DNA of 64,000 bases from Pseudomonas deceptionensis (GTDB lineage Bacteria > Pseudomonadota > Gammaproteobacteria > Pseudomonadales > Pseudomonadaceae): assembly GCF_900106095.1 (NCBI RefSeq), contig NZ_FNUD01000002.1:1819501-1883500 (forward strand), read 5' to 3'. Positions 26,109-54,396 of this stretch are shown here, one piece after another; position 1 is the stretch's first letter, and each line of letters opens with the position of its first letter. A model generated the notes under the pieces. The model saw only the letters and a list, made by a program, of their open reading frames with translations. It did no database searches and was not told the origin of the DNA. A program made the position numbers and the translations under genes.

Positions 26109-27440
26109 TTAAGCCGTCGCCGGCAACATTGGCTGCATTCTGCTGATTCCTGTGGCGGCCGCATAAGGTCGCAATATGCTAATCAGCAGTCCGCTTGCCA
26201 GCAGGTACCCCCCAGAGCAAATGACCATTGACCAGCGCAGTGCGTCAGCGCCGATATACGGGGTCAAATGATCGCTCAGCACACCAACGGCCAACGGCCC
26301 GAACCCTGCCCCCAGCGCCATGATTGCGAAGTTGTAAATCGCAATCATGGTCGCCCGGCGTTCCGGGATCACCAGTTGCGCAATGGCGGTGTAGCTGGGC
26401 GCCATCCACCACATGCCGAACACCGACATGGCGAACATAAATATGGCCGCTTGCGGTACCAGCAGCGCACCCAGCGACCAGGGATTGCCTGCCGGGTACA
26501 ACGCAAACGCCACGGCCATGGGGCAGGCGAGCAGTGAGCCGACAATCGGCACACCCAGTTGCCAGCGACTGTCACGCTGGGCCAGATAGGAACTCAGCCA
26601 GCCGCTGGAGAGTGAGCCGATGACGGCGCCCGGCCCGGCAGCCAGGCCCATGATGATGCCCGCATCCTTGAGCGACAGCCCGTGGCTGCGCACCAGGAAC
26701 GCCGTGCTCCAGATGCTGAAGGCGTAACTGGAAAACGCCAGCAGGGCTCCCGCCACGGCAATGCGCACGAAGGTCTTGGATCGCCAGGCCACGCGCATCA
26801 CTTGCATCACGCTTTCGTGGGGCAAGGCCGGTCGCGCCTGCTGAGCCTTTTCCCAGAGCCCGCGCAGCGGTTCAGTGGCCGTGAGGCGCAGCAACACGGC
26901 GGCAACAATGCCCGGGATTGCCATCCAGATAAATGCTTCACGCCAGCCGTGGTAATAGGCGATATAGGCCCCCAGGCTCATCCCCAGCAGCGCCCCGATC
27001 GGTGCGCCGAGCATGAACACGCTGATGGCCTTGGCCCGCTGGTGCGGCGGGTAGAGGTCGGCGATGATCGACATCGAGGCTGCGCCGCTGCCCGACTCAC
27101 CTACCGCCACGCCAACCCGCGCCAGTGCCAGTTGCCAGAAGTTGCTGGCGAAGCCGCAGAGCATGGCCATCACGCTCCAGAACGCGCAGCACCAGCCGAT
27201 CAGGTTGCGTCGGTGCGCGCGGTCGGCATAGCGCCCTAGCGGGATCGCGAACACGCAGTACACCAGCGCAAAGGCCAGCCCCGTGAGCAGGCCGATCTGG
27301 GTGTCGGAGACGTGGAACTCGGCTTTGATCGGTTCTATGACCACGCCCATGACCTGGCGGTCTATCAGGCTGACCGCTGAAATCAGGAACAACACAAACA
27401 AGGTGTAATGACGGCGAAATCCACGGACTTGGGTGTTCAT
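26109..27440 (-). CDS. MFS transporter (Spinster-like)
   Basis: The 443-residue protein has 12 hydrophobic segments. The first half opens with LFVLFLISAVSLIDRQVMGVVIEPIKAEFHVSDTQIG style sequence typical of the Spns/YhjE branch of the major facilitator superfamily, with the loop 2-3 motif GRYADRAHRRNLIG and VGVAVGESGSGAASMSIIADLYPP in helix 4-5. The direction and substrate are unknown. It is the last of three minus-strand genes after an OprB-like porin and an amidase, so it may import the amide hydrolysed by the amidase or its product. Confidence 0.88.
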   Translation of the reverse strand: MNTQVRGFRRHYTLFVLFLISAVSLIDRQVMGVVIEPIKAEFHVSDTQIGLLTGLAFALVYCVFAIPLGRYADRAHRRNLIGWCCAFWSVMAMLCGFASNFWQLALARVGVAVGESGSGAASMSIIADLYPPHQRAKAISVFMLGAPIGALLGMSLGAYIAYYHGWREAFIWMAIPGIVAAVLLRLTATEPLRGLWEKAQQARPALPHESVMQVMRVAWRSKTFVRIAVAGALLAFSSYAFSIWSTAFLVRSHGLSLKDAGIIMGLAAGPGAVIGSLSSGWLSSYLAQRDSRWQLGVPIVGSLLACPMAVAFALYPAGNPWSLGALLVPQAAIFMFAMSVFGMWWMAPSYTAIAQLVIPERRATMIAIYNFAIMALGAGFGPLAVGVLSDHLTPYIGADALRWSMVICSGGYLLASGLLISILRPYAAATGISRMQPMLPATA

Positions 27441-27480: not shown

Positions 27481-28941
27481 TTACAGCGGTGCGCGTCGCC
27501 CCGCCCAGGGGCGGGCCTGTTCGAGTTGTCCGGCCAATTGGAACAGCAGGTCTTCGCGGCACATCGGCGCAGTGAACATCATGCCGATGGGTAGACCCTC
27601 ACGGCTGGAGCCCAGCGGTACAGACATTGCCGGCTGACCACTGACATTGGCCAGTACGCTGTAGCCGATGCTGCCCAGGATGCCCTGGATGTAACCCTCA
27701 TAGCGCTGGTCCAGGCTGGCCCGCGACAGCAGTGGCGTGACGCACGAAGTCACCGGGCTCAGCAGGATGTCGTAATCGTCGAACACGCGCTCCATGCGAC
27801 TGCCGACACGTTCAAAGTCGCGCCGCGCACGGTACAGGTTTTCAGCTGTGGCGGAAGTGGCGTTGCGGACCAGACAGTGGCTCACGGGCTGCAGTTCGTC
27901 ATCGCGCAGGGGGCGGTCGAGGGCCGCTTCGCGATCGCGCACGGCGGCCAGTAATGCGGCGGCCCCCACGGCACCGTGGGCGCCATATACCTGCCGGGGA
28001 TCAATCGCCAGGCTCAACGGCTCAACCCGGTGTCCGAGGTCCAACAGCACTTCAACAGTTGTGTACAGAACCGAGCGGATGTCGGGGGCCAGTTCAACGC
28101 CGGTCATGGCCTGTTCGACCAGGCCGATGCGCAATGAACCGGGTGGGCGCTGCACGGCTTCGCTGAAGCTGACGGCTTGCGGTGTCAGCCAATACGGGCT
28201 GCCGGGTTCATGGCCGTGGCTGATGTCCAGTAGCAGCGCCGAGTCCCGCACGCTGCGCGACACCACATGGCCGCAGCTGGCGCCGAACCAGCCTTCAAAG
28301 GTGTTGGGGCCATGGGGGGTGCGGTAGCGCGTGGGCTTTAGGCCAAACACGCCGCAGTACGAGGCTGGGATGCGGATCGAGCCGCCGCCGTCGGTGGCGT
28401 GGGCCACGGGCACAATACCTGCCGCCACCGCTGCCGCAGCCCCGCCGGATGAACCGCCCGCGCTGTGTGCCAGGTTCCAGGGGTTGCAGGTTTTCCCCCA
28501 CAGGGCCGATTCGGTGGTGGTGGTCAGGCCGAACTCGGGGCTGCTGGTCTTGCCGAAAATCAGCATGCCGGCGGCCTCATAACGCTGCACCAGGGTGCTG
28601 TCGTAGAGGCTCGGCGGGCTCTGGGCCAGCAGGCGCGAACCATTGGTGGTCACGGTGCCGGCCAGGTAGGTATTCAAGTCCTTGAGCAGCATCGGCACTC
28701 CGGCCAGCGCGCCCAGCCGCTCGCTGCCTGCGGTATGACGCGCGGCCAGCACGGTTGCGGCATGGGCGTCGTGGCGCATGTTGACCGCATTGATGCGTGG
28801 GTTGACCTCGTCACAACGGGCCTGTGCGGCCATGAGCAGCGCGCCGGGGGTGATCTGGCCGCTGTGAACCGCAGCGGCCATGGCTGTGGCATCCAGTGCC
28901 AGATAGTCGTTGGGGGGCAGTTGATTGTGTTCGTTGTTCAT
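27481..28941 (-). CDS. Amidase signature family amidohydrolase
   Basis: The 486-residue enzyme has the Ser-cisSer-Lys triad of the family: Lys87 in VPMLLKDLN, Ser165 in AGGSSGGAA and the nucleophile Ser188 in TDGGGSIRIPAS, followed by YCGVFGLKPTR. It hydrolyses a carbon-nitrogen amide bond; the substrate cannot be read from sequence. It lacks the GatA partners (no gatB or gatC nearby), so it is not the tRNA amidotransferase. ATG at 28941 follows GAGG by 9 bases; the longer frame has no ribosome site. It lies between porin and MFS genes and is probably cotranscribed with them. Confidence 0.92.
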   Translation of the reverse strand: MNNEHNQLPPNDYLALDATAMAAAVHSGQITPGALLMAAQARCDEVNPRINAVNMRHDAHAATVLAARHTAGSERLGALAGVPMLLKDLNTYLAGTVTTNGSRLLAQSPPSLYDSTLVQRYEAAGMLIFGKTSSPEFGLTTTTESALWGKTCNPWNLAHSAGGSSGGAAAAVAAGIVPVAHATDGGGSIRIPASYCGVFGLKPTRYRTPHGPNTFEGWFGASCGHVVSRSVRDSALLLDISHGHEPGSPYWLTPQAVSFSEAVQRPPGSLRIGLVEQAMTGVELAPDIRSVLYTTVEVLLDLGHRVEPLSLAIDPRQVYGAHGAVGAAALLAAVRDREAALDRPLRDDELQPVSHCLVRNATSATAENLYRARRDFERVGSRMERVFDDYDILLSPVTSCVTPLLSRASLDQRYEGYIQGILGSIGYSVLANVSGQPAMSVPLGSSREGLPIGMMFTAPMCREDLLFQLAGQLEQARPWAGRRAPL

Positions 28942-29010
28942 GAAAAATGGCCTCGTGAATGCACTTCGACCTGGGCGTGAGCAGGGCAAAGTGAGCTTTT
29001 TCAGGGAGTT

Positions 29011-30300
29011 TTAAAACAGGAAGTTCAGCGATTCCTGCAACAGCAAGGCGTCGGAATGGATCGGTGAAAATACCGGGTTTTTGGTGTAGGTCAGGCCGCT
29101 GATCAAATACACCCCGGGGAACAGCCGCGCCGCATACGAGGTGGTCACAGCCAGGGTGTAGGGCGCCGCTTCGAGCCCGTAACGGGTCGTGGCGTCGCGC
29201 AGGTCACGGCTGTAGTAGCTTTTGGTCAGGCCCACGGCCGCCATGTCGGCGGGGCGGCTGGCAAATGGGCCGACATTGAAGGCACTGACCTGAAAGGCCT
29301 TGTTGATGGCGTTCACCGAGTCGGGCGAGTAGTCGATCTTGCTGTCCAGGTACCAGCCCCGGGCATCGTTGTAGGGCTTGGTGACTTGCACGGTTTCGGC
29401 CAGGTAAACCCCATAGTTGTTGTCCGACTGTTCGCCGGATTTGAACTCGGTGTAATGGCTGGTGTTGTACATCGCCCCGGCGCGCAACCACATCGCATGG
29501 GTGGAGGCCGACGAGGCTTGTTTATAGCCTGCCTCGTTGATAAACATCGCCCGGGCATCCTTGACCTTGAAGCTCAGGCCGCTGGGGTTGAGGTCGATGT
29601 CTTTTTGGATGCCTTCGGGGCTGACGCTGCGGGTCACGGCGGTGCTGTTGTAGAAGCGCAGGGACGGATCGCGCACGATCACGTTCACGGTGGGCGTCGG
29701 CTCGGTGGCGGACATACCGACCTGGAACGGCACCACGCTGCTTGGGCCAAGCGCTGCGGTAGAGGCGCTGCCGCCCAGTGCCATGCCGTAGAACAGGCGC
29801 ACGCCGGGGATAAACCCGTATTCGAATTCCAGTTGGTGATTGAAGAAGGACTGGTTGATGGCAAACACCGACACGGTTTTGACCCGGGGGTTGGCGGGGG
29901 TGTAGGTCGAGTCCACCCAGTTGCCGGCCAGGGTCAGCTGGGCGTCATTGGCAAAGCCGATGCGGGTCAGGTCGTAGGTCAGGTACAGGTTGAGCGAGGT
30001 GTTGTAGCTGGGGTTTTGCCCGTTATACACCTGCTTTTTCGCGTTATTGCCCAACACGTCGTAGGTGTAGCCGTTGTACGAAGTGGCGGTAAATCCGATC
30101 CCGTGTGCGGCCAGCTCCTTGCGCAGCCCCCAGAGGCCGGGGTTGATGCGGGCACAAACGGGCACGTTTTTGAACGACAGTTCGGCGCGGGTCAACAGTG
30201 GCTCGTATTGCGCGCACTCTGGCGTGTCAGCGGCCCGGGCGTGATGGGCAAAAGCCGCGGCGGCCAGACTGATGGCCAGTGGATACTTGGAGTCAAACAT
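29011..30300 (-). CDS. OprB-like carbohydrate-selective porin family protein
   Basis: The 429-residue protein has a signal peptide (cleaved after ARA near residue 23) and ends in Phe (ESLNFLF), the usual outer-membrane assembly signal. GLWGLRKELAAHGIGFTATSYNGYTYDVLGN near the start resembles the opening of OprB porins, and evenly spaced aromatic beta strands follow. OprB family proteins admit sugars and other small neutral solutes; here the amidase and MFS partner genes suggest an amide. Two cysteines (ECAQYE and VPVCAR) lie in the N-terminal segment. A MocR-type operator lies upstream (30393-30424). Confidence 0.75.
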   Translation of the reverse strand: MFDSKYPLAISLAAAAFAHHARAADTPECAQYEPLLTRAELSFKNVPVCARINPGLWGLRKELAAHGIGFTATSYNGYTYDVLGNNAKKQVYNGQNPSYNTSLNLYLTYDLTRIGFANDAQLTLAGNWVDSTYTPANPRVKTVSVFAINQSFFNHQLEFEYGFIPGVRLFYGMALGGSASTAALGPSSVVPFQVGMSATEPTPTVNVIVRDPSLRFYNSTAVTRSVSPEGIQKDIDLNPSGLSFKVKDARAMFINEAGYKQASSASTHAMWLRAGAMYNTSHYTEFKSGEQSDNNYGVYLAETVQVTKPYNDARGWYLDSKIDYSPDSVNAINKAFQVSAFNVGPFASRPADMAAVGLTKSYYSRDLRDATTRYGLEAAPYTLAVTTSYAARLFPGVYLISGLTYTKNPVFSPIHSDALLLQESLNFLF

Positions 30301-30392: not shown

Positions 30393-30424
30393 ATGGGGCC
30401 AGTGGGGTTTATCGATAGGGCCAG
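30393..30424. promoter_or_regulatory. Putative MocR-type operator upstream of the porin gene
   Basis: Direct repeats ATGGGGCCAG (30393-30402) and ATAGGGCCAG (30415-30424) place their CCAG cores exactly 22 bases apart, about 93 bases before the porin start. TCGATAGGGCCAG (30412-30424) is identical to 38042-38054 in the toa/isfE operator. Likely bound by the adjacent MocR protein or by TauR. Confidence 0.55.
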
Positions 30425-30484: not shown

Positions 30485-31996
30485 TCAGATACGCACACTG
30501 CCGGGTCGTTTGGCATGCCCGTTGATCACCAGCCCCAGCTCGCGAATGCCCGGCGCGATCAGTTCCTGGGCGATGGAGCCAAACCCCAGTCGCAGGCTGG
30601 GCCGGGTCAGGGTGTCGGGCTCAGAGCAGAATGCATTGCCCGGGTCGAACAGCACGCCCTTGGCCACACCTGCGTAATACAGGCTCAGCAGGTCGTGCTG
30701 GCCTGCCAGTTTTAGCCACAGGGTGGCGCCGCCGCTGGGCATGTGGAACTCGGCGTCGGGCAATGCTTCGCGCAAAGCGCTGGCCAGCGCCTGCGCCCGC
30801 GCCTGGAGTTTCTCCCGGGCCTGTTGCAGCAGGCGGTCGTAGTGCCCCTGCTGGATAAACAGCGCGGCGGTGATCTGGTTGTTGCCGGGGATCTGGCGAA
30901 TCATCAGCCGTTGCAGCTGGCGCAACTGCTCGATGACCGGCGCCGGGGCGACGATGTAGCCAATGCCCAGGCCGGGGGAAAGCAGCTTGGACAGGCTGCT
31001 GAGGTAGATCACCCGGTCTGCCGGGTCGATGGCTTTGAGGGCTGGCTGGGCGTGGCCGTCATATTCGGTTTCGGGGTCGTCATCGTCCTCGAAGATCACC
31101 TGGTCGTGCCGTTGCGCATGGGCGAGCACAGCCTGGCGCCGGGCCGGGGTCATGGTCACGCCGGTAGGGCATTGGTAGGCAGGAGTGCAGTACAGGTAGT
31201 CGCACCTGGAGAGGGCGGGGGTGATCATCAGCCCCTGTTCGTCGATGGCCAGCGACACCACCTCTGCGCCATCGTGGGCGAAGGCATTGCGCGGGTCGCG
31301 AAACCCCGGTTCTTCAACGCCGATAACCGTGCCCGGTCGCGCAAACAAGCGTGCCAGCAAGTAAAAGCTCTGCTGGCGGCCCAGAGTCAGCAGCACCTGG
31401 TCGTGGGTGGCGGCGATGCCGCGACGGGGCAGTACACGGCGAATCAGCTGGTCGATCAGCTGGCTTTCGCCGACGTTCTCACCCTCTTGCCACCAGCGAT
31501 CCACCGCCTTCCATTCCAGGGCCTGGCGGCTGCACTGGCGCCATTGCGACAGCGGGAATTGCTTGGGGTCGAACTGGCCATAGACAAAGGGGTAGCGCAC
31601 CTGGCGCCAGGTCGGCGGACGATCGGCCCAGGCTACCCCGGGTTTGTCGCTGTGCATGCGCGCCGACCAGTCGGGGGGCTGCGCGGCGGGGGCGGGTGAG
31701 GGCTGCGCCTGTTGGGTCGGCGGGATGGCGCCGCATACAAAGAAGCCGTCCCGTGGCCGGGAGTCGACATACCCTTCGCCCACCAGACGCTCATACACCA
31801 GCATGGCGGTGTTGCGCGACACCCCGCTCAGCATCGCCAGATCCCGGCTCGACGGCAGGCGTGTGCCCGCAGGCAAGCGCCCCTCCAGAATGGCGGTGAC
31901 AAAGGCGGTACACAGCTGCACTTGCAGCGGCTCATCATGCGTGTGCACTTTGGGCAGCAGCTGGCGCCACATCAAATCATGCTGGATGGAGCGCAT
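30485..31996 (-). CDS. MocR-family (GntR plus aminotransferase-like) transcriptional regulator
   Basis: The 503-residue protein has an N-terminal GntR winged helix (about 15-85; LPSSRDLAMLSGVSRNTAMLVYERLVGEGYV) joined to a fold-type I aminotransferase-like domain with the PLP-anchoring Lys in YLSSLSKLLSPGLGIGY and the ring-stacking region VIFEDDDDPETEY. MocR proteins sense PLP or amino compounds through this domain. It is a paralogue of the TauR encoded at 35069-36607. It lies upstream of the porin-amidase-MFS set on the same strand and probably controls it, perhaps through the repeat at 30393-30424. Confidence 0.93.
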   Translation of the reverse strand: MRSIQHDLMWRQLLPKVHTHDEPLQVQLCTAFVTAILEGRLPAGTRLPSSRDLAMLSGVSRNTAMLVYERLVGEGYVDSRPRDGFFVCGAIPPTQQAQPSPAPAAQPPDWSARMHSDKPGVAWADRPPTWRQVRYPFVYGQFDPKQFPLSQWRQCSRQALEWKAVDRWWQEGENVGESQLIDQLIRRVLPRRGIAATHDQVLLTLGRQQSFYLLARLFARPGTVIGVEEPGFRDPRNAFAHDGAEVVSLAIDEQGLMITPALSRCDYLYCTPAYQCPTGVTMTPARRQAVLAHAQRHDQVIFEDDDDPETEYDGHAQPALKAIDPADRVIYLSSLSKLLSPGLGIGYIVAPAPVIEQLRQLQRLMIRQIPGNNQITAALFIQQGHYDRLLQQAREKLQARAQALASALREALPDAEFHMPSGGATLWLKLAGQHDLLSLYYAGVAKGVLFDPGNAFCSEPDTLTRPSLRLGFGSIAQELIAPGIRELGLVINGHAKRPGSVRI

Positions 31997-32128: not shown

Positions 32129-32998
32129 TTAGCCCCGGCCTTTCCACGGCACCAGGTTGCGTTCCAGCCAGCGCATGCCCAAATCGAACAGCAGCGCCAG
32201 CACGCCGATGACCAGAATGCCCATGATCACCACATCGGTGGCCATGAACTTGGAGGCGGTGAGCACCATAAAGCCCAGCCCGGCAGTGGCCGCGACCATT
32301 TCAGCAGCCACCAGGGTGGTCCAGCCAAAGCCGATGGCGATCCGCATCCCGGTCAGTATCTCGGGCAGGGCGGCGGGCATGATTACGTACTTGAGCACTT
32401 GCCCCCGGCTGGCGCCCATGGAGTAGGCTGCGTGGATTTGCTCGATGGCCACCGACTTGACCCCGGCCCTCGCACTCAGGGCCAGAGGGGCAAACATCGC
32501 AAGGTAGATCAGGAGGATTTTCGAGCCTTCGCCGATGCCCATCCAGATCACCACCAAGGGCAGATAGGCCAGTGGTGGCAGCGGTCGATAAAACTCCACC
32601 AGCGGGTCGAACACGCCACGGGCGACGCGATTGACGCCCATCAGGATCCCCACCGGGATGGCTGTGAGCACCGCCAGCACAAAAGCGCCAAACACCCGCA
32701 AGGCGCTCCAGCCGATATGGGTCAGCAGGCTGGCGTCAGCAAAGCCGTCGCGGCTGACCTCGATGATTTGCGCCCATACCGCTTGGGGCGAGGGCAGAAA
32801 CAAGGGTTTGATCCAGCCATGGTTGGTGGCCATGAACCACAGGGCAAACACCACGAAAATCGTGCCCAGGCTCAGGGCCATGCTTGAGCCGTTGCCGGGT
32901 GCGCCATATTGCTCGCCCGGTCTGGCGGGGGCTGCACGGCGCAGCTCGTTCAGGGTGCGCAGCACGGCATTGCGTTGTTTTTCGTCTAGCAGGCTCAT
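32129..32998 (-). CDS. tauC: Taurine ABC transporter permease TauC
   Basis: The 289-residue inner-membrane permease of the SsuC/TauC family has about six helices and the cytoplasmic EAA loop (AAYSMGASRGQVLKYVIMPAALPEILTGMRIAIGFGWTTLVAAE). LEFYRPLPPLAYLPLVVIWMGIGEGSKILLIYLAMFAP is replaced in pieces across helices 3-4 as in E. coli TauC. It overlaps the tauB stop by one base and is the last gene of tauABC. Alternative: an SsuC-like alkanesulfonate permease, but the surrounding taurine genes favour TauC. Confidence 0.9.
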   Translation of the reverse strand: MSLLDEKQRNAVLRTLNELRRAAPARPGEQYGAPGNGSSMALSLGTIFVVFALWFMATNHGWIKPLFLPSPQAVWAQIIEVSRDGFADASLLTHIGWSALRVFGAFVLAVLTAIPVGILMGVNRVARGVFDPLVEFYRPLPPLAYLPLVVIWMGIGEGSKILLIYLAMFAPLALSARAGVKSVAIEQIHAAYSMGASRGQVLKYVIMPAALPEILTGMRIAIGFGWTTLVAAEMVAATAGLGFMVLTASKFMATDVVIMGILVIGVLALLFDLGMRWLERNLVPWKGRG

Positions 32999-33834
32999 TA
33001 CGCTGCCTCCTCATCACCGTGGATGATGCTCAGGATCTGCTCGCGCAGGGCAATAAAATCAGGGCTGGATTTGACTGCGCGGGCGTCCCGGCACGTGAGA
33101 AAACGCTGGCCGAAATCCACCGCGAATTCGTGGGTGATGCGCCCCGGGCGCGGCGACATGATGATCAGCCGGGTGGCCATGAACAGCGCTTCTTCCACGT
33201 CATGGGTGATAAAAAACATCATCTTTTGCGTGCGCTGCCATATCTCCAGGATCAGCTCCTGCAAGCGTTCGCGGGTCAGGGCGTCCAGCGCGCCCAGGGG
33301 TTCGTCCAGCAACAGCATCTTGGGGTCATTGGTCAGGGCGCGGGCGATACCGACGCGTTGCTGCATGCCCCCCGAAAGCTGATAGGTGGCGTGGTCGCGA
33401 AACTCTGCCAGGCCGGTCAGTTGCAAAAAATGCATCGCCCGCTCGTACCGCTCTGCTTTGGGAATACCGCGCAATTTGAGGCCGAAGGCAACGTTGTCGA
33501 TCACATTCAGCCATGGCAGCAGCGCGTGCTTCTGGAACACCACGCCGCGCTCGGCTCCGGGGCCGGTGACCTGATCGCGCAGCTCGGCGCCCTCGATACG
33601 GGCAGGCACCTGGCCGTGATAATCGCCCAGCGTGATCACCCCGCTGCTGGGTTGAATAAACCCGGCCATCAGGTTGAGCAAGGTGGTTTTGCCGCAGCCC
33701 GAGGCGCCGAGTGCGACCACAAAATCACCGGCGGCAATATCCAGATTGACCCCGGACAAGGCACGCACCGGCTGACCCTTTTGCTGCCCTGGATAGAGCA
33801 CTGACACATCGTGGATTTTGAGGCTGAGGCTCAT
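32998..33834 (-). CDS. tauB: Taurine ABC transporter ATPase TauB
   Basis: The 278-residue importer ATPase has Walker [10 protein letters not shown], signature [15 protein letters not shown], Walker [13 protein letters not shown] and the switch His in [15 protein letters not shown]. The C-terminus ([15 protein letters not shown] stretch, then FAVDFGQRF) is as in the nitrate/sulfonate/taurine ATPase group. It overlaps tauC by one base and follows tauA with a short gap, so the three genes form one operon. Confidence 0.92.
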
Positions 33835-33879: not shown

Positions 33880-34884
33880 TTAATGGGCGGCCTGCACAAA
33901 CGTCGGGTTGATCGCCACGCTGTAGTCAGGCAGCAGCGCCGGGATTTTCTTCTGGGCTTTCAAAAATTCGGCCGTGGCGTTCAGGGCCTTGGCCGCGCCG
34001 CCGCCCAGCCACGCAGAGCCTGCCTGTTCGCTGGCCAGCGGGAACTGGTACAGCGCCAGTACCGCGGGCACTTCTTGTGGCTTGGCCCCGGACTGCCTGG
34101 CTACGTTGATCACTTGCGGCGAATCGGCGGTCCAGGTTTTTGGCGCATTGACGTAACCCGCCGTGCTGTCTTGCAACACCTGGGTAAAGGCCTGCATGCC
34201 GGGGCCGTTGGCGGCGGCGAACGTTTTATCCACAACCAGCCCGTCAAAGGTGGCCTTGCCCCAGTTGGTCAATTGGCCCGAGGTCAGCAGCACATGGCCG
34301 CTTTGCTTGAGGCGGCCCAGCGCCGGGTCCCAGATAAAGGCGGCATCGATATCCCCGCGTTCCCAGGCGGCCGGAATATCCGAGGGCTGCAGGTTGATGA
34401 CCTTGACCTTGCCGGTCAGGCCGAATTGCTCAAGGGCAAACAGCGCGTGAAAGTGGGTGGTCGAGACAAACGGCACGGCGAGGGTTTTGCCGGCCAGGTC
34501 CTGGGGCGCGACGATGCCGCTGCCATTGCGCACCACCAGCGCTTCGGCGTCGGCGATGTTGTCCAGAATCCAGAACAACTGCGCGTCCACGCCACGGCTC
34601 ACGGCTGCCGCAATCGGGCTGCTGCCGGCGACGCCGATCTGCACATCGCCCGAAGCCATGGCCATCATCACGTCGCCGCCGCTGTCGAAGTTGCGCCACT
34701 GGATATCCCAGCCGGTGGCCTTCTCAAATGCCTTTTGTGCGATGGCATCCTTCCAGGGCGCAAACATGCTTTGCACGCCGACGGTGACGGTTTGTGCATG
34801 GGCATTGGCCGCCAGACCGAAGGTCAGGGCCGTGAGCGGCAACAAGACAGCACGACGAATCCAGGTATTCAGGGGCTTGAGCAT
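33880..34884 (-). CDS. tauA: Taurine ABC transporter substrate-binding protein TauA
   Basis: The 334-residue periplasmic protein has a signal peptide cleaved after ANAHA (residue 30). The mature protein follows the TauA pattern: TVTVGVQSMFAPWKDAI, WRNFDSGGDVMMAMASGDVQIGVAGSSPIAAAVSRG for sulfonate recognition, then KTLAVPFVSTTHFHALFAL and AAFIWDPALGRLKQSG. It is the first gene of tauABC and is divergent from tauR, whose likely operator (34956-34987) is 72 bases upstream of this start. Confidence 0.93.
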   Translation of the reverse strand: MLKPLNTWIRRAVLLPLTALTFGLAANAHAQTVTVGVQSMFAPWKDAIAQKAFEKATGWDIQWRNFDSGGDVMMAMASGDVQIGVAGSSPIAAAVSRGVDAQLFWILDNIADAEALVVRNGSGIVAPQDLAGKTLAVPFVSTTHFHALFALEQFGLTGKVKVINLQPSDIPAAWERGDIDAAFIWDPALGRLKQSGHVLLTSGQLTNWGKATFDGLVVDKTFAAANGPGMQAFTQVLQDSTAGYVNAPKTWTADSPQVINVARQSGAKPQEVPAVLALYQFPLASEQAGSAWLGGGAAKALNATAEFLKAQKKIPALLPDYSVAINPTFVQAAH

Positions 34885-34955
34885 GGTGAGGCTCCGAGAA
34901 GGGGAAGGCGTTGTTTTGAGTCAGCCCGATCTTAGGTGCTGGCCCGACGCTTGCT

Positions 34956-34987
34956 TTAGATCCAGTTGCTGCAAGCTGTGGTGCCAG
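34956..34987. promoter_or_regulatory. Putative TauR operator between tauA and tauR
   Basis: TTAGATCCAG at 34956-34965 is, on the minus strand, CTGGATCTAA, one base from the CTGGACYTAA motif reported for Rhodobacter TauR. A second, weaker half ending in CCAG (34978-34987) follows so that the CCAG cores are 22 bases apart. The strong half is 72 bases before the tauA start, matching its distance from toa in the other operator. Confidence 0.65.
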
Positions 34988-35068: not shown

Positions 35069-36607
35069 ATGTTGGAGCGTTATTTTCGACCCTTCGAAGC
35101 GGGCCGAGGTTTGCAGGAACAACTGCGCGAGAGCCTGCTCAGCGCGATACTGGACGGCGCCATGCCGCCCAGTGAGCCGATGCCGTCTTCGCGCAAGTTG
35201 TGCGAGCTGCTCAAGGTGTCGCGCAATACCGTGGTGCTGGTTTATGAGCAGTTGGTGCAGGATGGTTATTTGATCCCGTCGGACCGGCGCGGTTATTTCA
35301 TCAACGAGAAATACCTGCGCCAGCAACTCAACGTCACGCTCAAGCCGGCCACGCAAAAAATCTTCGAGCGGGCCGATCACGCGCCCGACTGGGAAGCACG
35401 CTTGCAAAGCAGCTCGTCGCGCCTGCGGGCCATCGTCAAGCCGCGCAACTGGCGTGAGTACCGCTACCCGTTTATCTATGGTCAGGTTGAGGCCGACGAG
35501 CAGACCGCCGCCCGCTGGCGCGACTGTTCGCGCATCGCCAGCACCGGCGCGCATATGCGCAGTTGGGTGGACGATCAGGTGATGCTGGATGACCCGCTGC
35601 TGGTCGAGCAGATTATCCAGCGGGTGCTGCCCAAGCGTGGGATCAGCGTGTCGGCGCAAGAAATACTGGTGACCATCGGCACCCAGAATTCGCTCTATAT
35701 GCTGGCGCAACTGCTGGGTCGGCCGGGGCTGGTGATGGGGCTGGAAGAGCCGGGTTATGTCGATGCGCGCAATATTTTCAGCTTGAGCGGCTGTGAGCTC
35801 AAGCCGCTGCGCATTGACCGCCAGGGGCTGGTGGTCAATGAACAGCTGGATGGTTGCGAGATGGTGTTCAGCACCCCCAGCCACCAATCGCCTACCGGGG
35901 TGACCATGCCGCTGTACCGCCGCCTGGAGCTGATGGCCAGTGCTCGCGAGCGGGATTTTCTGATCATCGAAGACGACTACGAAAACGAGCAGAATTTTTT
36001 GGGCAGCAACCACCCGGCCTTGAAGAGCTTTGATGACACCGGGCGAGTGATCTATCTGGGCAGCCTGACCAAAAGCCTGCTGCCGGGGGTACGTCTGGGG
36101 TTTATTGCGGCGGATGCTGAATTGATCCATGAGCTGCGTGCGTTGCGCCGTTACATCTATCGGCACCCGCCGTCGAATAACCAGCGCACGCTGGCGCTGT
36201 TTTTATCCATGGGGCATTACGACGCCCATGCCCGCCGCTTGCGTGATCGTCTGGCGCGCAAATGGCGGGTGATCAGCCGGGCGATGGCCGAGCACCTGCC
36301 CGAGTTCAATGCCAGCGGCATGGCGGGTGGTTCATCGCTGTGGGTCACTTGCCCGCAGGGGGTCGATGCCTGGGTGCTGCAACGGCTGGTGGCCAGGCGC
36401 GGGGTGTTGATTGAACCGGGGGATATTCACTACCTGAGCGAGCAGCGCCCGTTGAACTGTTTTCGGCTTGGGTTCGGGGCCATTGCTGAAGAGTTGATCG
36501 AGCCCGGGATTGCCGCGCTGGGGGCCGCGTGGCGGGAGATGCTGGTGGAGCATAAAGCCCTTCACCCTCTCCCGGAGGGAGAGGGTGCTGGCTTGAATTG
36601 CGCTTGA
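35069..36607 (+). CDS. tauR: MocR-family regulator of taurine utilisation, TauR
   Basis: The 512-residue GntR/MocR regulator has a winged helix at about 15-85 (MPSSRKLCELLKVSRNTVVLVYEQLVQDGYL) and an aminotransferase-like sensor domain with the PLP Lys in YLGSLTKSLLPGVRLGF. It is divergent from tauABC and next to the aminotransferase gene, the place occupied by TauR in the C. salexigens cluster. TauR of this type activates taurine genes. The last residues (HPLPEGEGAG) are encoded by an 11-base-stem palindrome, so the native C-terminus has probably been extended by a repeat. Start ATG at 35069 has a weak ribosome site (GGAGC 15 bases upstream). Confidence 0.88.
   Translation: MLERYFRPFEAGRGLQEQLRESLLSAILDGAMPPSEPMPSSRKLCELLKVSRNTVVLVYEQLVQDGYLIPSDRRGYFINEKYLRQQLNVTLKPATQKIFERADHAPDWEARLQSSSSRLRAIVKPRNWREYRYPFIYGQVEADEQTAARWRDCSRIASTGAHMRSWVDDQVMLDDPLLVEQIIQRVLPKRGISVSAQEILVTIGTQNSLYMLAQLLGRPGLVMGLEEPGYVDARNIFSLSGCELKPLRIDRQGLVVNEQLDGCEMVFSTPSHQSPTGVTMPLYRRLELMASARERDFLIIEDDYENEQNFLGSNHPALKSFDDTGRVIYLGSLTKSLLPGVRLGFIAADAELIHELRALRRYIYRHPPSNNQRTLALFLSMGHYDAHARRLRDRLARKWRVISRAMAEHLPEFNASGMAGGSSLWVTCPQGVDAWVLQRLVARRGVLIEPGDIHYLSEQRPLNCFRLGFGAIAEELIEPGIAALGAAWREMLVEHKALHPLPEGEGAGLNCA
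36563..36587. repeat. Perfect palindrome inside the 3' end of tauR
   Basis: CACCCTCTCCC and its exact complement GGGAGAGGGTG (36563-36573, 36577-36587) flank a GGA loop. Such CCCTCTCCC/GGGAGAGGG hairpins are dispersed repeats in many proteobacteria. Here it lies in frame within tauR codons near the stop; a decayed relative (CCTCTC / GAGAGG) is at 30452-30468. Confidence 0.7.
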
Positions 36608-36641: not shown

Positions 36642-37952
36642 TCACAGCGCTTCGCGGCTCAGCGTGTCTTTGAGCAGGCCGAACATCGCATCCAGATCCG
36701 CTCGCCCGGTGACCAGCGCCGGGGCGAAGATAATCGCGTCGCCGGTGGTTTTTACATGCAGCCCCGCGTCATAAAGCGCCCGTTGAACCCGCGCACCTTT
36801 GGCCCCCGGTGTCTCGCCGGGGGTGAGCTGAATCCCGCTGAGCAGCCCGTAACCGCGCAAGTCGCTGACCTGCGCCAAACCTTTCAGGCCGCTGAGGGAC
36901 TCAAGAAAGTACGGTGCCAACTGCGCGCCTTTTCCGAACACATCCTCATCCCGGTAAATGTCCAGTGAGGCCAGCGCGGCCGCACACGCCACCGGGTGCC
37001 CGGAGTAGGTGTAGCCGTGGAAGAGCTCCGGGCCGCCGCCCTTGCTGGCGTTGATCACCGTGTCGTAAACCCCTTCGTCGATTGCCACCGCGCCCATCGG
37101 GATCGCGCCATTGGTCAAGGCCTTGGCCAGGGTGATGAGGTCCGGTTTCACGTCAAAACTCTGCGCTGCAAACGCCTGGCCGGTGCGGCCAAAACCGGTA
37201 ATGACTTCGTCGAAGACCAGCAGAATCCCGTGCTTGTCGCAGATGTCCCGCAGACGCTTGAGGTAACCCGCAGGCGGTACATAGACGCCGATAGAGCCGG
37301 CAATCGGTTCCACAAAACACGCCGCAATGCTGTCGCCGCCATGCATGGCGATGATCCGCTCCAGATCGCTGGCAAGGTCGGCGCCCTGCTGCGGCTCGCC
37401 CAACTGGTAGCGCTGGTCTTCTTGCCAGGTGTGGCGCATATGGCTGACGTGGGGCAGGCCGCCCGTCGCGAATGCCTGGCGGTTACGCATCATCCCTGAC
37501 AGCGCGACGCCACCGAAATTGACCCCGTGATACGCCCACTCGCGGGACACAAAGCGGGTGCGCTGAGCTTCGCCGCGAGCGCGGTGATAGGCCAGGGCGA
37601 TCTTCATCGCGCTGTCCACCGACTCGGAGCCGGAGTTGGTGAAAAACAGTTTGTTCAGGCCTGCGGGCAGCAGCTCGCTCAAGCGTTCGGCCAGTTCAAA
37701 GGACAGAGGCGAAGCGCGCTGAAAATGCGGGGTGAAATCCAGGGTCAGCAGTTGCTTGCACACGGCTTCGGCGATCTCGGTGCGGCCATGGCCGGCGGCA
37801 CTGCAAAATAGCCCCGAGCTGCCATCGAGCAACTCGCGACCCTCGGCATTCCAGTAGCGCACGCCCTCGGCACGGACGAACAACTGCGGCGCCCGCTGGA
37901 ACTCGCGGTTGTCGGTGAAAGGCATCCACTGGTGGTTCAGATTCGTCGCCAT
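36642..37952 (-). CDS. toa: Class III omega-aminotransferase, probable taurine aminotransferase Toa
   Basis: The 436-residue PLP enzyme belongs to the omega-amino acid transaminase branch near beta-alanine:pyruvate aminotransferase. The opening HWMPFT-like stretch (NHQWMPFTDNREFQ), SGSESVDSAMKIALAYHRARG, LLVFDEVITGFGRTG and the PLP Lys in LAKALTNGAIPMG are family marks. In this cluster it would move the amino group of taurine to 2-oxoglutarate or pyruvate, giving sulfoacetaldehyde. ATG at 37952 follows AGGAG by 8 bases; a GTG at 37961 is too close to the ribosome site. It is divergent from isfE, with a double operator between. Choice of acceptor keto acid cannot be decided from sequence. Confidence 0.8.
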   Translation of the reverse strand: MATNLNHQWMPFTDNREFQRAPQLFVRAEGVRYWNAEGRELLDGSSGLFCSAAGHGRTEIAEAVCKQLLTLDFTPHFQRASPLSFELAERLSELLPAGLNKLFFTNSGSESVDSAMKIALAYHRARGEAQRTRFVSREWAYHGVNFGGVALSGMMRNRQAFATGGLPHVSHMRHTWQEDQRYQLGEPQQGADLASDLERIIAMHGGDSIAACFVEPIAGSIGVYVPPAGYLKRLRDICDKHGILLVFDEVITGFGRTGQAFAAQSFDVKPDLITLAKALTNGAIPMGAVAIDEGVYDTVINASKGGGPELFHGYTYSGHPVACAAALASLDIYRDEDVFGKGAQLAPYFLESLSGLKGLAQVSDLRGYGLLSGIQLTPGETPGAKGARVQRALYDAGLHVKTTGDAIIFAPALVTGRADLDAMFGLLKDTLSREAL

Positions 37953-38020
37953 GGGTATCACTCCTGAGGGTAGGTCTGGGCGGGCCAGTTGCCTGCAGAC
38001 TAGTCACGGCGGGCCGTGGG

Positions 38021-38090
38021 GCTTAGATCCAGATGGGTCTTTCGATAGGGCCAGTTCTGGCACCATCGAAAGGCCTTGCTGGATCTAAGC
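38021..38090. promoter_or_regulatory. 70-base palindromic double operator (putative TauR) between toa and isfE
   Basis: GCTTAGATCCAG (38021-38032) and CTGGATCTAAGC (38079-38090) are exact complements. Inside them CTTTCGAT / ATCGAAAG (38039-38046, 38065-38072) and CCAG / CTGG (38051-38054, 38057-38060) are also symmetric about the same centre. Each side is thus a pair of CCAG (or CTGG) cores 22 bases apart, one pair facing each promoter, 71 bases from toa and 55 from isfE. Confidence 0.75.
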
Positions 38091-38142
38091 CGGTGCCTGG
38101 CGGCTGACTACAGTGGGGCCATTGAGCACGCCGGAGCTGCGG

Positions 38143-38880
38143 ATGAACCCTGAATTGAGTTGGGCGTTAAGTGCAGGTTGCGTGCTGGTGGCGGCCATTG
38201 TTCGCGGGCTGACCGGTTTCGGTTTTGCCGCCATTGCAGTGGTGGGGCTGGCGATGCTCGGTTCGCTGCAACAGGCGGTACCGCTGGTGTTGTTTTTGGA
38301 GGTTGCGTCCAGCGTGATGTTGCTGCGCAGCGCCTGGCGTGAAGCGGATTACCGCCTGCTCAAGCGCCTGCTGTTGGCGAGCGCATGCGGTGTGCCCTGC
38401 GGGGTGTTGCTGTTGACCGGCATCGACAGCGGAGGGCTTGCCGTCGGGGTTTATCTGTTGGTGGGGCTGCTGGCGATTCTCGGCCTGACGCGCATTCGCT
38501 TGCCGTTGGGCGAGGGCCGTACCGGTGCCTGGCTGGTGGGTGCCAGCAGCGGCGCGCTGATTGCCGCGTTCAGTATTGGCGGACCTCTGGTGGTGGCGTG
38601 GCTCAGCCATTGCGGGCTGCGGGCGCATGCCTTGCGGGCAACGCTGATCATGTTCTTTTTCGTGGTGGATATCGCGGCTCTGGGAGGGCTGGCGGCCGCC
38701 TCGGCGATCCCGGCCGACACCGGCCGCCAAGCGCTGCTGATGGTGCCTGCGTTGCTGCTGGGGTTGTGGCTGGGCCAGCAGTTGTTCGCCCGTATTCAGG
38801 CCGATCAGGCCGCCCGTTTTACCCAATGGCTATTGCTGGTGCTGGCAGGCGTGGGCCTGCTGGGCCGGGCGTGGTCCTGA
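38143..38880 (+). CDS. isfE: TSUP-family (TauE/SafE) anion exporter, probable isethionate exporter IsfE
   Basis: The 245-residue membrane protein has about eight helices in two repeats. The first starts AAIVRGLTGFGFAAIAVVGLAML and the second ASSGALIAAFSIGGPLVVAWL, with the Gly-rich motifs of the sulfite-exporter family TauE/SafE. ATG at 38143 follows GGAG by 7 bases; the frame is open further upstream. It lies 19 bases before the dehydrogenase gene, a likely operon. Position matches the predicted isethionate exporter of C. salexigens. TSUP proteins also move sulfite or sulfoacetate, so the exact substrate is inferred. Confidence 0.8.
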   Translation: MNPELSWALSAGCVLVAAIVRGLTGFGFAAIAVVGLAMLGSLQQAVPLVLFLEVASSVMLLRSAWREADYRLLKRLLLASACGVPCGVLLLTGIDSGGLAVGVYLLVGLLAILGLTRIRLPLGEGRTGAWLVGASSGALIAAFSIGGPLVVAWLSHCGLRAHALRATLIMFFFVVDIAALGGLAAASAIPADTGRQALLMVPALLLGLWLGQQLFARIQADQAARFTQWLLLVLAGVGLLGRAWS

Positions 38881-38899: not shown

Positions 38900-39658
38900 A
38901 TGACACCGACCGTTTTTATCACCGGGGCAACCTCGGGTTTTGGCCAGGCGTGCGCCCGCAGGTTTGCCGCCGCTGGCTGGTCGCTGGTGCTCACCGGGCG
39001 CCGGGCCGAACGTTTGCACGCCTTGGCCGATGAGCTTGGCACCCAGGCCCGGGTACTGCCTCTGGTGCTCGACGTGCGTGATCGCGCCGCCATGGAGCAG
39101 GCCATCGGGCAACTGCCACCGGCCTTCAGCACCTTGCGCGGGCTGATCAACAATGCCGGGCTGGCATTGGGCACCGCACCTGCTGCCCAGTGTTCGCTGG
39201 ATGATTGGGACACCATGGTCGATACCAATATCAAGGGCCTGCTCTACAGCACGCGCTTGTTGTTGCCGCGCTTGATTGCCCACGGTGCGGGCGCCGGGAT
39301 CGTCAATCTGGGGTCGATTGCGGGTAACTGGCCTTACCCCGGCAGCCATGTGTATGGCGCGAGCAAAGCCTTTGTGCGGCAGTTTTCATTGAACCTGCGC
39401 TGTGATTTGCAGGGTACCGGGGTGCGCGTCACCAACCTTGAGCCGGGGTTGTGCGAGAGCGAGTTCTCACAGGTGCGCTTTGCCGGTGATCAGGCCCGGT
39501 ATGACGCGCTGTATGCCGGTGCCCGGGCGATTCAACCGGAGGACATTGCCGAGACGATTTTCTGGATTCTCAACCAGCCGGCGCATATCAATATCAACAG
39601 TCTTGAGTTGATGCCCGTCAGCCAGTCGTGGAGCAACTTTGCGGTTGAACGCGCCTAG
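38900..39658 (+). CDS. isfD: Short-chain dehydrogenase, probable sulfoacetaldehyde reductase IsfD
   Basis: The 252-residue SDR has the cofactor motif TGATSGFG (8-15), LVLTGRRAERLHAL with the Arg pair favouring NADPH, NNAG in GLINNAGLAL, and the catalytic Ser-Tyr-Lys in NLGSIAG and YGASK. It resembles the YdfG/IsfD branch (about 27 kDa). With Toa and IsfE it would reduce sulfoacetaldehyde to isethionate. AAGGAG lies 7 bases before the ATG. Alternative: a serine/3-hydroxy acid dehydrogenase of the YdfG group; the taurine context makes IsfD more likely. Confidence 0.8.
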   Translation: MTPTVFITGATSGFGQACARRFAAAGWSLVLTGRRAERLHALADELGTQARVLPLVLDVRDRAAMEQAIGQLPPAFSTLRGLINNAGLALGTAPAAQCSLDDWDTMVDTNIKGLLYSTRLLLPRLIAHGAGAGIVNLGSIAGNWPYPGSHVYGASKAFVRQFSLNLRCDLQGTGVRVTNLEPGLCESEFSQVRFAGDQARYDALYAGARAIQPEDIAETIFWILNQPAHININSLELMPVSQSWSNFAVERA

Positions 39659-54316: not shown

Positions 54317-54396
54317 GGGAGCGAGCCTGCTCGCGATGCTGGCGCTGCGATCTTTCGGACGGTCGAGGTGCGGCCATCGCGAGCAGGCTCGCTCCC
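54317..54396. repeat. REP doublet (GGGAGCGAGCCTGCTCGC family)
   Basis: Twenty-two-base arms (54317-54338 and 54375-54396), exact complements beginning GGGAGCGAGCCTGCTCGCGA, flank a 36-base spacer. This is the head-to-head REP pair (REPIN-like) typical of the P. fluorescens group. It lies 15 bases after cysE. Confidence 0.9.

Follow-up and report, generated by a model that had tools for sequence, protein, structure and literature searches.

A palindrome between divergent genes of a probable taurine cluster in Pseudomonas deceptionensis reads as two candidate TauR-type operators

The stretch of Pseudomonas deceptionensis DNA analysed here (64,000 nucleotides, hereafter the window) carries, by family matches, TauABC, Toa, IsfD and IsfE together, a gene set described for taurine-nitrogen assimilation with isethionate release (PMC6616044). 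An omega-aminotransferase gene, probably the taurine aminotransferase gene toa (36642-37952, minus strand; start placed by eye at ATG 37952, listed as GTG 37961), is transcribed leftward. Rightward runs a gene for a TauE/SafE-family membrane protein (tsup), probably the isethionate exporter gene isfE (38143-38880, plus strand; start placed by eye at ATG 38143), followed by a short-chain dehydrogenase gene, probably the sulfoacetaldehyde reductase gene isfD (38900-39658, plus strand). The tsup query used in searches spanned 38149-38880 and was two codons shorter than the gene delimited by eye. Beyond toa lie a MocR-type regulator gene (35069-36607, plus strand) and tauA, encoding the binding protein of a taurine ABC transporter (33880-34884, minus strand). 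After tauA come tauB-like (32998-33834) and tauC-like (32129-32998) genes, named from best matches that fall below their curated cut-offs. The closest relatives of the locus are found in Pseudomonas species of the fragi group.

The regulator has the MocR architecture, with a GntR domain (PF00392, positions 15-78) and an aminotransferase domain (PF00155, positions 178-482), and GabR structures are among its sequence matches. GabR, a MocR protein with solved structures, shares this domain architecture and binds direct repeats (PMC5320631), as is predicted for the regulator here, but differs in ligand and genes. The regulator is about 50% identical to alphaproteobacterial proteins, for example 51% to P0063 from a Rhodobacterales bacterium. 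Its best NCBIfam match is PdxR, at a score just above the cut-off (326.2 against 320), and the PdxR label recurs in the source names of some relatives. The gene context next to tauABC suggests TauR rather than PdxR.

The region between toa and isfE contains the strongest palindrome in the window. Centred between 38055 and 38056, it forms 29 complementary pairs out of 36 and ranks first among all window centres, and 20 shuffles within 500-base blocks reached a maximum of 23 pairs. Its arms, 38020-38054 and 38057-38091, are 35 nucleotides each, 83% complementary, and separated by two nucleotides (TT). Three word pairs share the centre: TTAGATCCAG (38023-38032) with CTGGATCTAA (38079-38088) on the outside, CTTTCGAT (38039-38046) with ATCGAAAG (38065-38072) in the middle, and GCCAG (38050-38054) with CTGGC (38057-38061) innermost. 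CCAG starts at 38029 and 38051 and CTGG at 38057 and 38079, giving a spacing of 22 bases in either half. An earlier note on this DNA had described both the three nested pairs around one centre and the 22-base repeat, and the palindrome is real and as described there. Other strong palindromes in the window, centred at 54356 (27 of 36 pairs) and 11218 (26 of 36), are perhaps terminators.

Each half of the palindrome has the general form CTGG-N18-CTGGATCTAA, a 22-base direct repeat oriented toward its own promoter. The candidate toa-side operator (38023-38054, minus strand) consists of the inner box CTGGCCCTAT (38045-38054) and the outer box CTGGATCTAA (38023-38032). After a gap of two bases (TT, 38055-38056), the candidate tsup/isfE-side operator (38057-38088, plus strand) follows with the inner box CTGGCACCAT (38057-38066) and the outer box CTGGATCTAA (38079-38088). 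A third candidate operator, standing singly before tauA (34956-34987, minus strand), reads CTGGCACCAC-N12-CTGGATCTAA, so that here too a CTGG lies 22 bases from CTGGATCTAA. The 5.1-Mb genome holds three copies of CTGGATCTAA: one closes the palindrome at each end and the third precedes tauA. The reversed word does not occur. TauR is reported to bind repeats of CTGGACYTAA (PMC5320631), from which the outer box differs at one position, as the earlier note had said. The inner boxes are weaker, agreeing at 8 (CTGGCCCTAT) and 6 (CTGGCACCAT) of 10 positions. The repeats are of the CTGGACYTAA type, with one mismatch in the outer box and a conserved 22-base spacing. The claim that two complete sites lie here, one for toa and one for isfE, is borne out by a 22-base repeat for each divergent gene, close to a MocR gene and tauABC. 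Judged from these sequences, the palindrome is probably two separate TauR-type operators placed back to back, one per divergent promoter, and its mirror symmetry would arise because the divergent genes each have an upstream operator.

A protein search with the tsup membrane protein in named genomes returned 31 loci, 13 from Pseudomonas and 18 from other genera. Both operators and the 22-base repeat are kept in the window and in all 13 Pseudomonas loci, which were found by protein and not by motif (the outer-box pattern allowed two free positions); the exception in detail is P. psychrophila, where the right inner box has TTGG for CTGG. The earlier note had held that loss of one half or of the 22-base spacing in relatives would speak against its reading, and neither loss is seen in these 13 loci. 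The Pseudomonas rows come from related species, so their counts are not independent. Over distances of 12 to 44 bases, the repeat spacing is 22 at 40 sites in the 14 Pseudomonas loci and at 18 sites in the 18 outgroup loci, with all other distances combined accounting for 7 and 3 sites, respectively. The same holds for the operator before tauA, where, with no spacing imposed, CTGG stands 22 bases upstream of the outer box in 12/12 Pseudomonas loci with adjacent tauA and tauR.

The gap between the two operators varies by clade. It is 2 bases in the fragi group (the window and five named loci, 8/8 rows when two further genomes are included), 11 in all four loci of the next clade, three of which differ in the 11 bases themselves, and 32 in P. 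marginalis; in three further loci it is 47. Row counts leave out L073/G196, L082/G291, L083/G303 and L085/G235 as repeats of the arms of L036, L034, L064 and L041; the arms of L043 and L044 are identical. On a midpoint-rooted tree of toa and tsup DNA, gap classes 2, 11 and 47 each form one supported group, and the gap-32 locus sits beside the gap-47 group. Since the central gap varies while both halves and their repeat are kept, each half is conserved as a unit and their juxtaposition is not; the near-zero gap is a trait of the fragi group.

Outside Pseudomonas the arrangement is simpler. One 22-base operator oriented to tsup is present in 9 of 18 outgroup loci, and a second operator facing away was not seen in those nine; the operator pattern was not found at all in 6 of the 18. 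At outgroup tauA, the 22-base repeat occurs in only 11 of 16 loci, one of them at the second-best box. Where a TauR relative is nearby in other genera, tsup lies downstream of it in the same direction. Across 398 genomes of the genus, CTGG-N18-CTGGMTCTAA was found at 27 places in 14 genomes and its reversed pattern at 3; 22 of the 27 places adjoin tauA/tauR or toa/tsup genes and 5 lie elsewhere. Both halves with a gap of 0-30 match in five of these genomes, and only G533, which carries the P. nabeulensis site, adds to the genomes already named. Of 115 relatives searched for the operator pattern, four match: the window genome and, with a single match apiece, three genomes from other families. 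Two genomes (G392 and G384; loci L077 and L078) encode a TauR relative of 74-76% identity and have a tauA operator with the 22-base repeat and TAAGAT at 20 bases, which is their only match to CTGG-N18-CTGGMTCTAA. P. psychrophila HA-4 (L035) has toa, tsup, the dehydrogenase gene and the palindrome, with neither tauR nor tauA beside toa in 12.7 kb. Its TauR relative, 83% identical, is on another contig (L099, G443:C92), with a tsup-like stretch of 55 residues after it; CTGG-N18-CTGGNTCTAN was not found in the 15 kb around this relative.

All three operators stand at a fixed distance from a -10-like hexamer. TAGTCT (37997-38002, minus strand) for toa and TACAGT (38109-38114, plus strand) for tsup/isfE are both 20 bases beyond the outer box, and TAAGAT (34929-34934) for tauA is at 21. 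A TANNNT at 20 or 21 bases is present in 16/16 toa rows, 16/16 tsup rows and 20/20 tauA rows; the tauA rows include three repeats of a species and were picked by a first-box filter excluding ATCGAAA, to keep out toa/tsup sites. In the outgroup, TANNNT is at 21 in 18/18 sites from 12 loci. A sigma-70 scan found no normal promoter, which says little because shuffles average only 0.1. A sigma-54 reading of CTGGCAC...TTGC was rejected by eye, its spacing being wrong for the consensus. The layout from box to -10 fits an activator that compensates for a weak -35, and TauR has been reported as an activator (PMC5320631). The candidate operators, their spacing, the -10 ruler and their conservation are properties of the sequences themselves.

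Direct repeats two or three helical turns apart are known for MocR regulators, and a four-box motif of the order <- <- -> -> has been predicted for 8 regulogs covering 39 regulons (Table 2, PMC5320631). The box order and direction here are the same, with the operators head to head. The layout is therefore of a known kind, and the view of the earlier note that a head-to-head MocR operator is unusual finds no support in these predictions. Inter-box distances in the predicted motifs are generally constant within an orthologous group (PMC5320631), whereas the central gap here is 2, 11, 32 or 47, which makes two operators a better description than a single four-box motif. The TauR operators of Rhodobacter capsulatus and the regulogs of PMC5320631 likewise combine CTGGACYTAA-like direct repeats (with one mismatch here), a MocR regulator and tau genes; the difference is that two operators serve a divergent toa / isfE-isfD pair here. 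Gammaproteobacterial TauR targets in that work are tauABC, tpa and an amino acid transporter, and the isf names do not appear in its main text. The isf/toa pathway described for Chromohalobacter salexigens and Klebsiella oxytoca (PMC6616044) has the same TauABC, Toa, IsfD and IsfE set; the present locus differs from it in having toa and isfE diverge from paired operators.

Reading both operators as TauR sites leaves one observation unexplained, and we count it against that reading: the likeness of the inner boxes to a site beside a second MocR-type regulator (MocR2; 30485-31996, minus strand), which is 40% identical to TauR. Next to MocR2 is a run of porin, amidase and MFS genes (29011-30300, 27481-28989 and 26109-27440, all minus strand), and in front of the OprB-type porin gene lies an operator-like site (30393-30424, minus strand), CTGGCCCTATCGATA...CTGGCCCCAT, with a 22-base repeat and a first box resembling the palindrome inner boxes. 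It is possible, though we doubt it, that TauR reads the outer boxes and that MocR2, in addition to TauR or in its place, reads the inner boxes, CTGGCNCYATCGAWA, which would link taurine use to the porin-amidase-MFS run. Exact CTGGCNCYATCGAWA occurs three times in the genome, at the two inner boxes and at the porin front. The pattern was written after the sites had been seen, however, and at one mismatch there are 14 more genome matches (3 in all for the reversed control). Counting the window, MocR2 is present in 10 loci (collected at the strict limit of 1e-130). In 8 of them the exact word precedes the porin gene, in L101 it differs at one position, and in L107 such a site before the porin gene was not found. 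A longer word common to the palindrome inner boxes, CTGGCNCYATCGAAA, is absent from the tauA operators (12/12 Pseudomonas) and from 18 outgroup sites, as ATCGAWA is from the tauA inner boxes and the 18 outgroup sites. The absence of ATCGAAA at tauA is taken from the 12 Pseudomonas loci with adjacent tauA and tauR and not from the 20 tauA rows, because the filter for those rows excluded that word. The putative recognition helices of the two regulators, VSRNTVVLVYEQL and VSRNTAMLVYERL, are nearly alike, which fits MocR2 reading the inner boxes, but TauR itself could read all these boxes.

Of the rows with MocR2, 7 of 9 carry exact ATCGAAA in both inner boxes, as do none of the 7 without, a contrast confounded by the clustering of MocR2 presence on the tree (3 changes). 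Each of the seven rows lacking MocR2 retains the word in a single inner box, the left one in five rows and the right one in two, so MocR2 is not needed for it, and a strict dependence of inner ATCGAAA on MocR2 was rejected. The porin site is also one of 17 one-mismatch matches to the operator pattern; the reversed pattern yields 14, so that search alone does not lift the site above chance. The porin site has TACTAA at 21 bases and no TANNNT at 20 or 21. The porin-amidase-MFS run may serve to release taurine from an acylated derivative; its amidase may act on N-acetyltaurine, as in naa gene clusters. The N-acetyltaurine amidohydrolase gene naaS is listed with a LysR, not a MocR, regulator (PMC4334477).

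An extended form of this idea has two paralogous MocR regulators sharing the palindrome as a composite operator, TauR at the outer and MocR2 at the symmetric inner boxes, with taurine and a precursor setting the same promoter pair and the arm symmetry renewed in places by template switching; we consider it unlikely. Template switching as a cause of arm symmetry is only a lead, because it is drawn from work in yeast (PMC8604942). The arms of P. nabeulensis (L045, operators from 5869) are 31/32 identical, with a spacer identity of 17 against 14.0, and share ATGGAAA, found in no other compared row; this looks like homogenisation. As a general process, arm homogenisation was rejected: over 18 spacer positions, the agreement between left and right arms of one genome lies within -1.3 to +1.4 of their mean agreement with arms from other genomes in that gap class, P. 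nabeulensis excepted, in a comparison where P. marginalis has no same-gap-class partner.

The earlier note had seen a fused operator that would allow cooperative or looped binding by two dimers. The fused arrangement as the functional unit is not supported, and we regard it as improbable that two TauR dimers touch across the centre and switch toa and isfED together. The gap is exactly 2 in 8/8 fragi-group rows and exactly 11 in 4/4 rows of the next clade, even though the bases differ among three of the latter, and for gaps of 2, 11 and 32 the inner CTGG words are 154-206 degrees apart (at 34.3 degrees per base); both points favour such contact. A gap of 47 (three rows) breaks this phase, at about 309 degrees; there are four different gaps while the 22-base repeat is constant; and tauA is served by a single operator, as is tsup in 9 of 18 outgroup loci. 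Fixed helical phasing between the operators was rejected on the same grounds, gaps 2, 11 and 32 being roughly in phase and 47 not, with four classes too few for a rule. A role as a DNA or RNA hairpin (terminator or cruciform), in place of two operators, is hardly credible for the palindrome despite the stable predicted fold (38018-38093 as single-strand DNA, -28.3 kcal/mol, z -10.2), since a scan found no terminator-like site there (shuffles average 0.4), no more than 22-23 of 32 arm positions match where the gap is 47 yet each half remains an operator, and a single half stands alone at tauA.

With two separate TauR-type operators as the preferred reading, regulation might proceed as follows. 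A dimer of the MocR protein encoded at 35069-36607, PLP-bound and responsive to taurine as the signal, would bind CTGG-N18-CTGGATCTAA as a 22-base direct repeat at each site. The outer box would end at the expected start of the -35 element, 20 or 21 bases upstream of a bare -10; because it abuts this position, bound TauR could draw RNA polymerase to a promoter lacking a good -35, or remodel the polymerase there, and so activate the promoter. The left operator would drive toa, for the conversion of taurine to sulfoacetaldehyde, and the right operator isfE-isfD, for reduction of sulfoacetaldehyde to isethionate and isethionate export.

The explanation of the palindrome is mostly ordinary. Less expected are how strictly the -10 is spaced from the outer box and the recurrence of the inner-box word near a second MocR regulator. 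Together the data offer a compact rule for TauR-type promoters: a 22-base direct repeat, an outer box 20 or 21 bases from the -10, and one operator per promoter. The separation of the operators by 2 to 47 bases in one and the same divergent gene pair provides a ready series for the question of cooperation between MocR dimers, and the inner boxes raise the possibility that the two MocR paralogues of this cluster engage in cross-talk.
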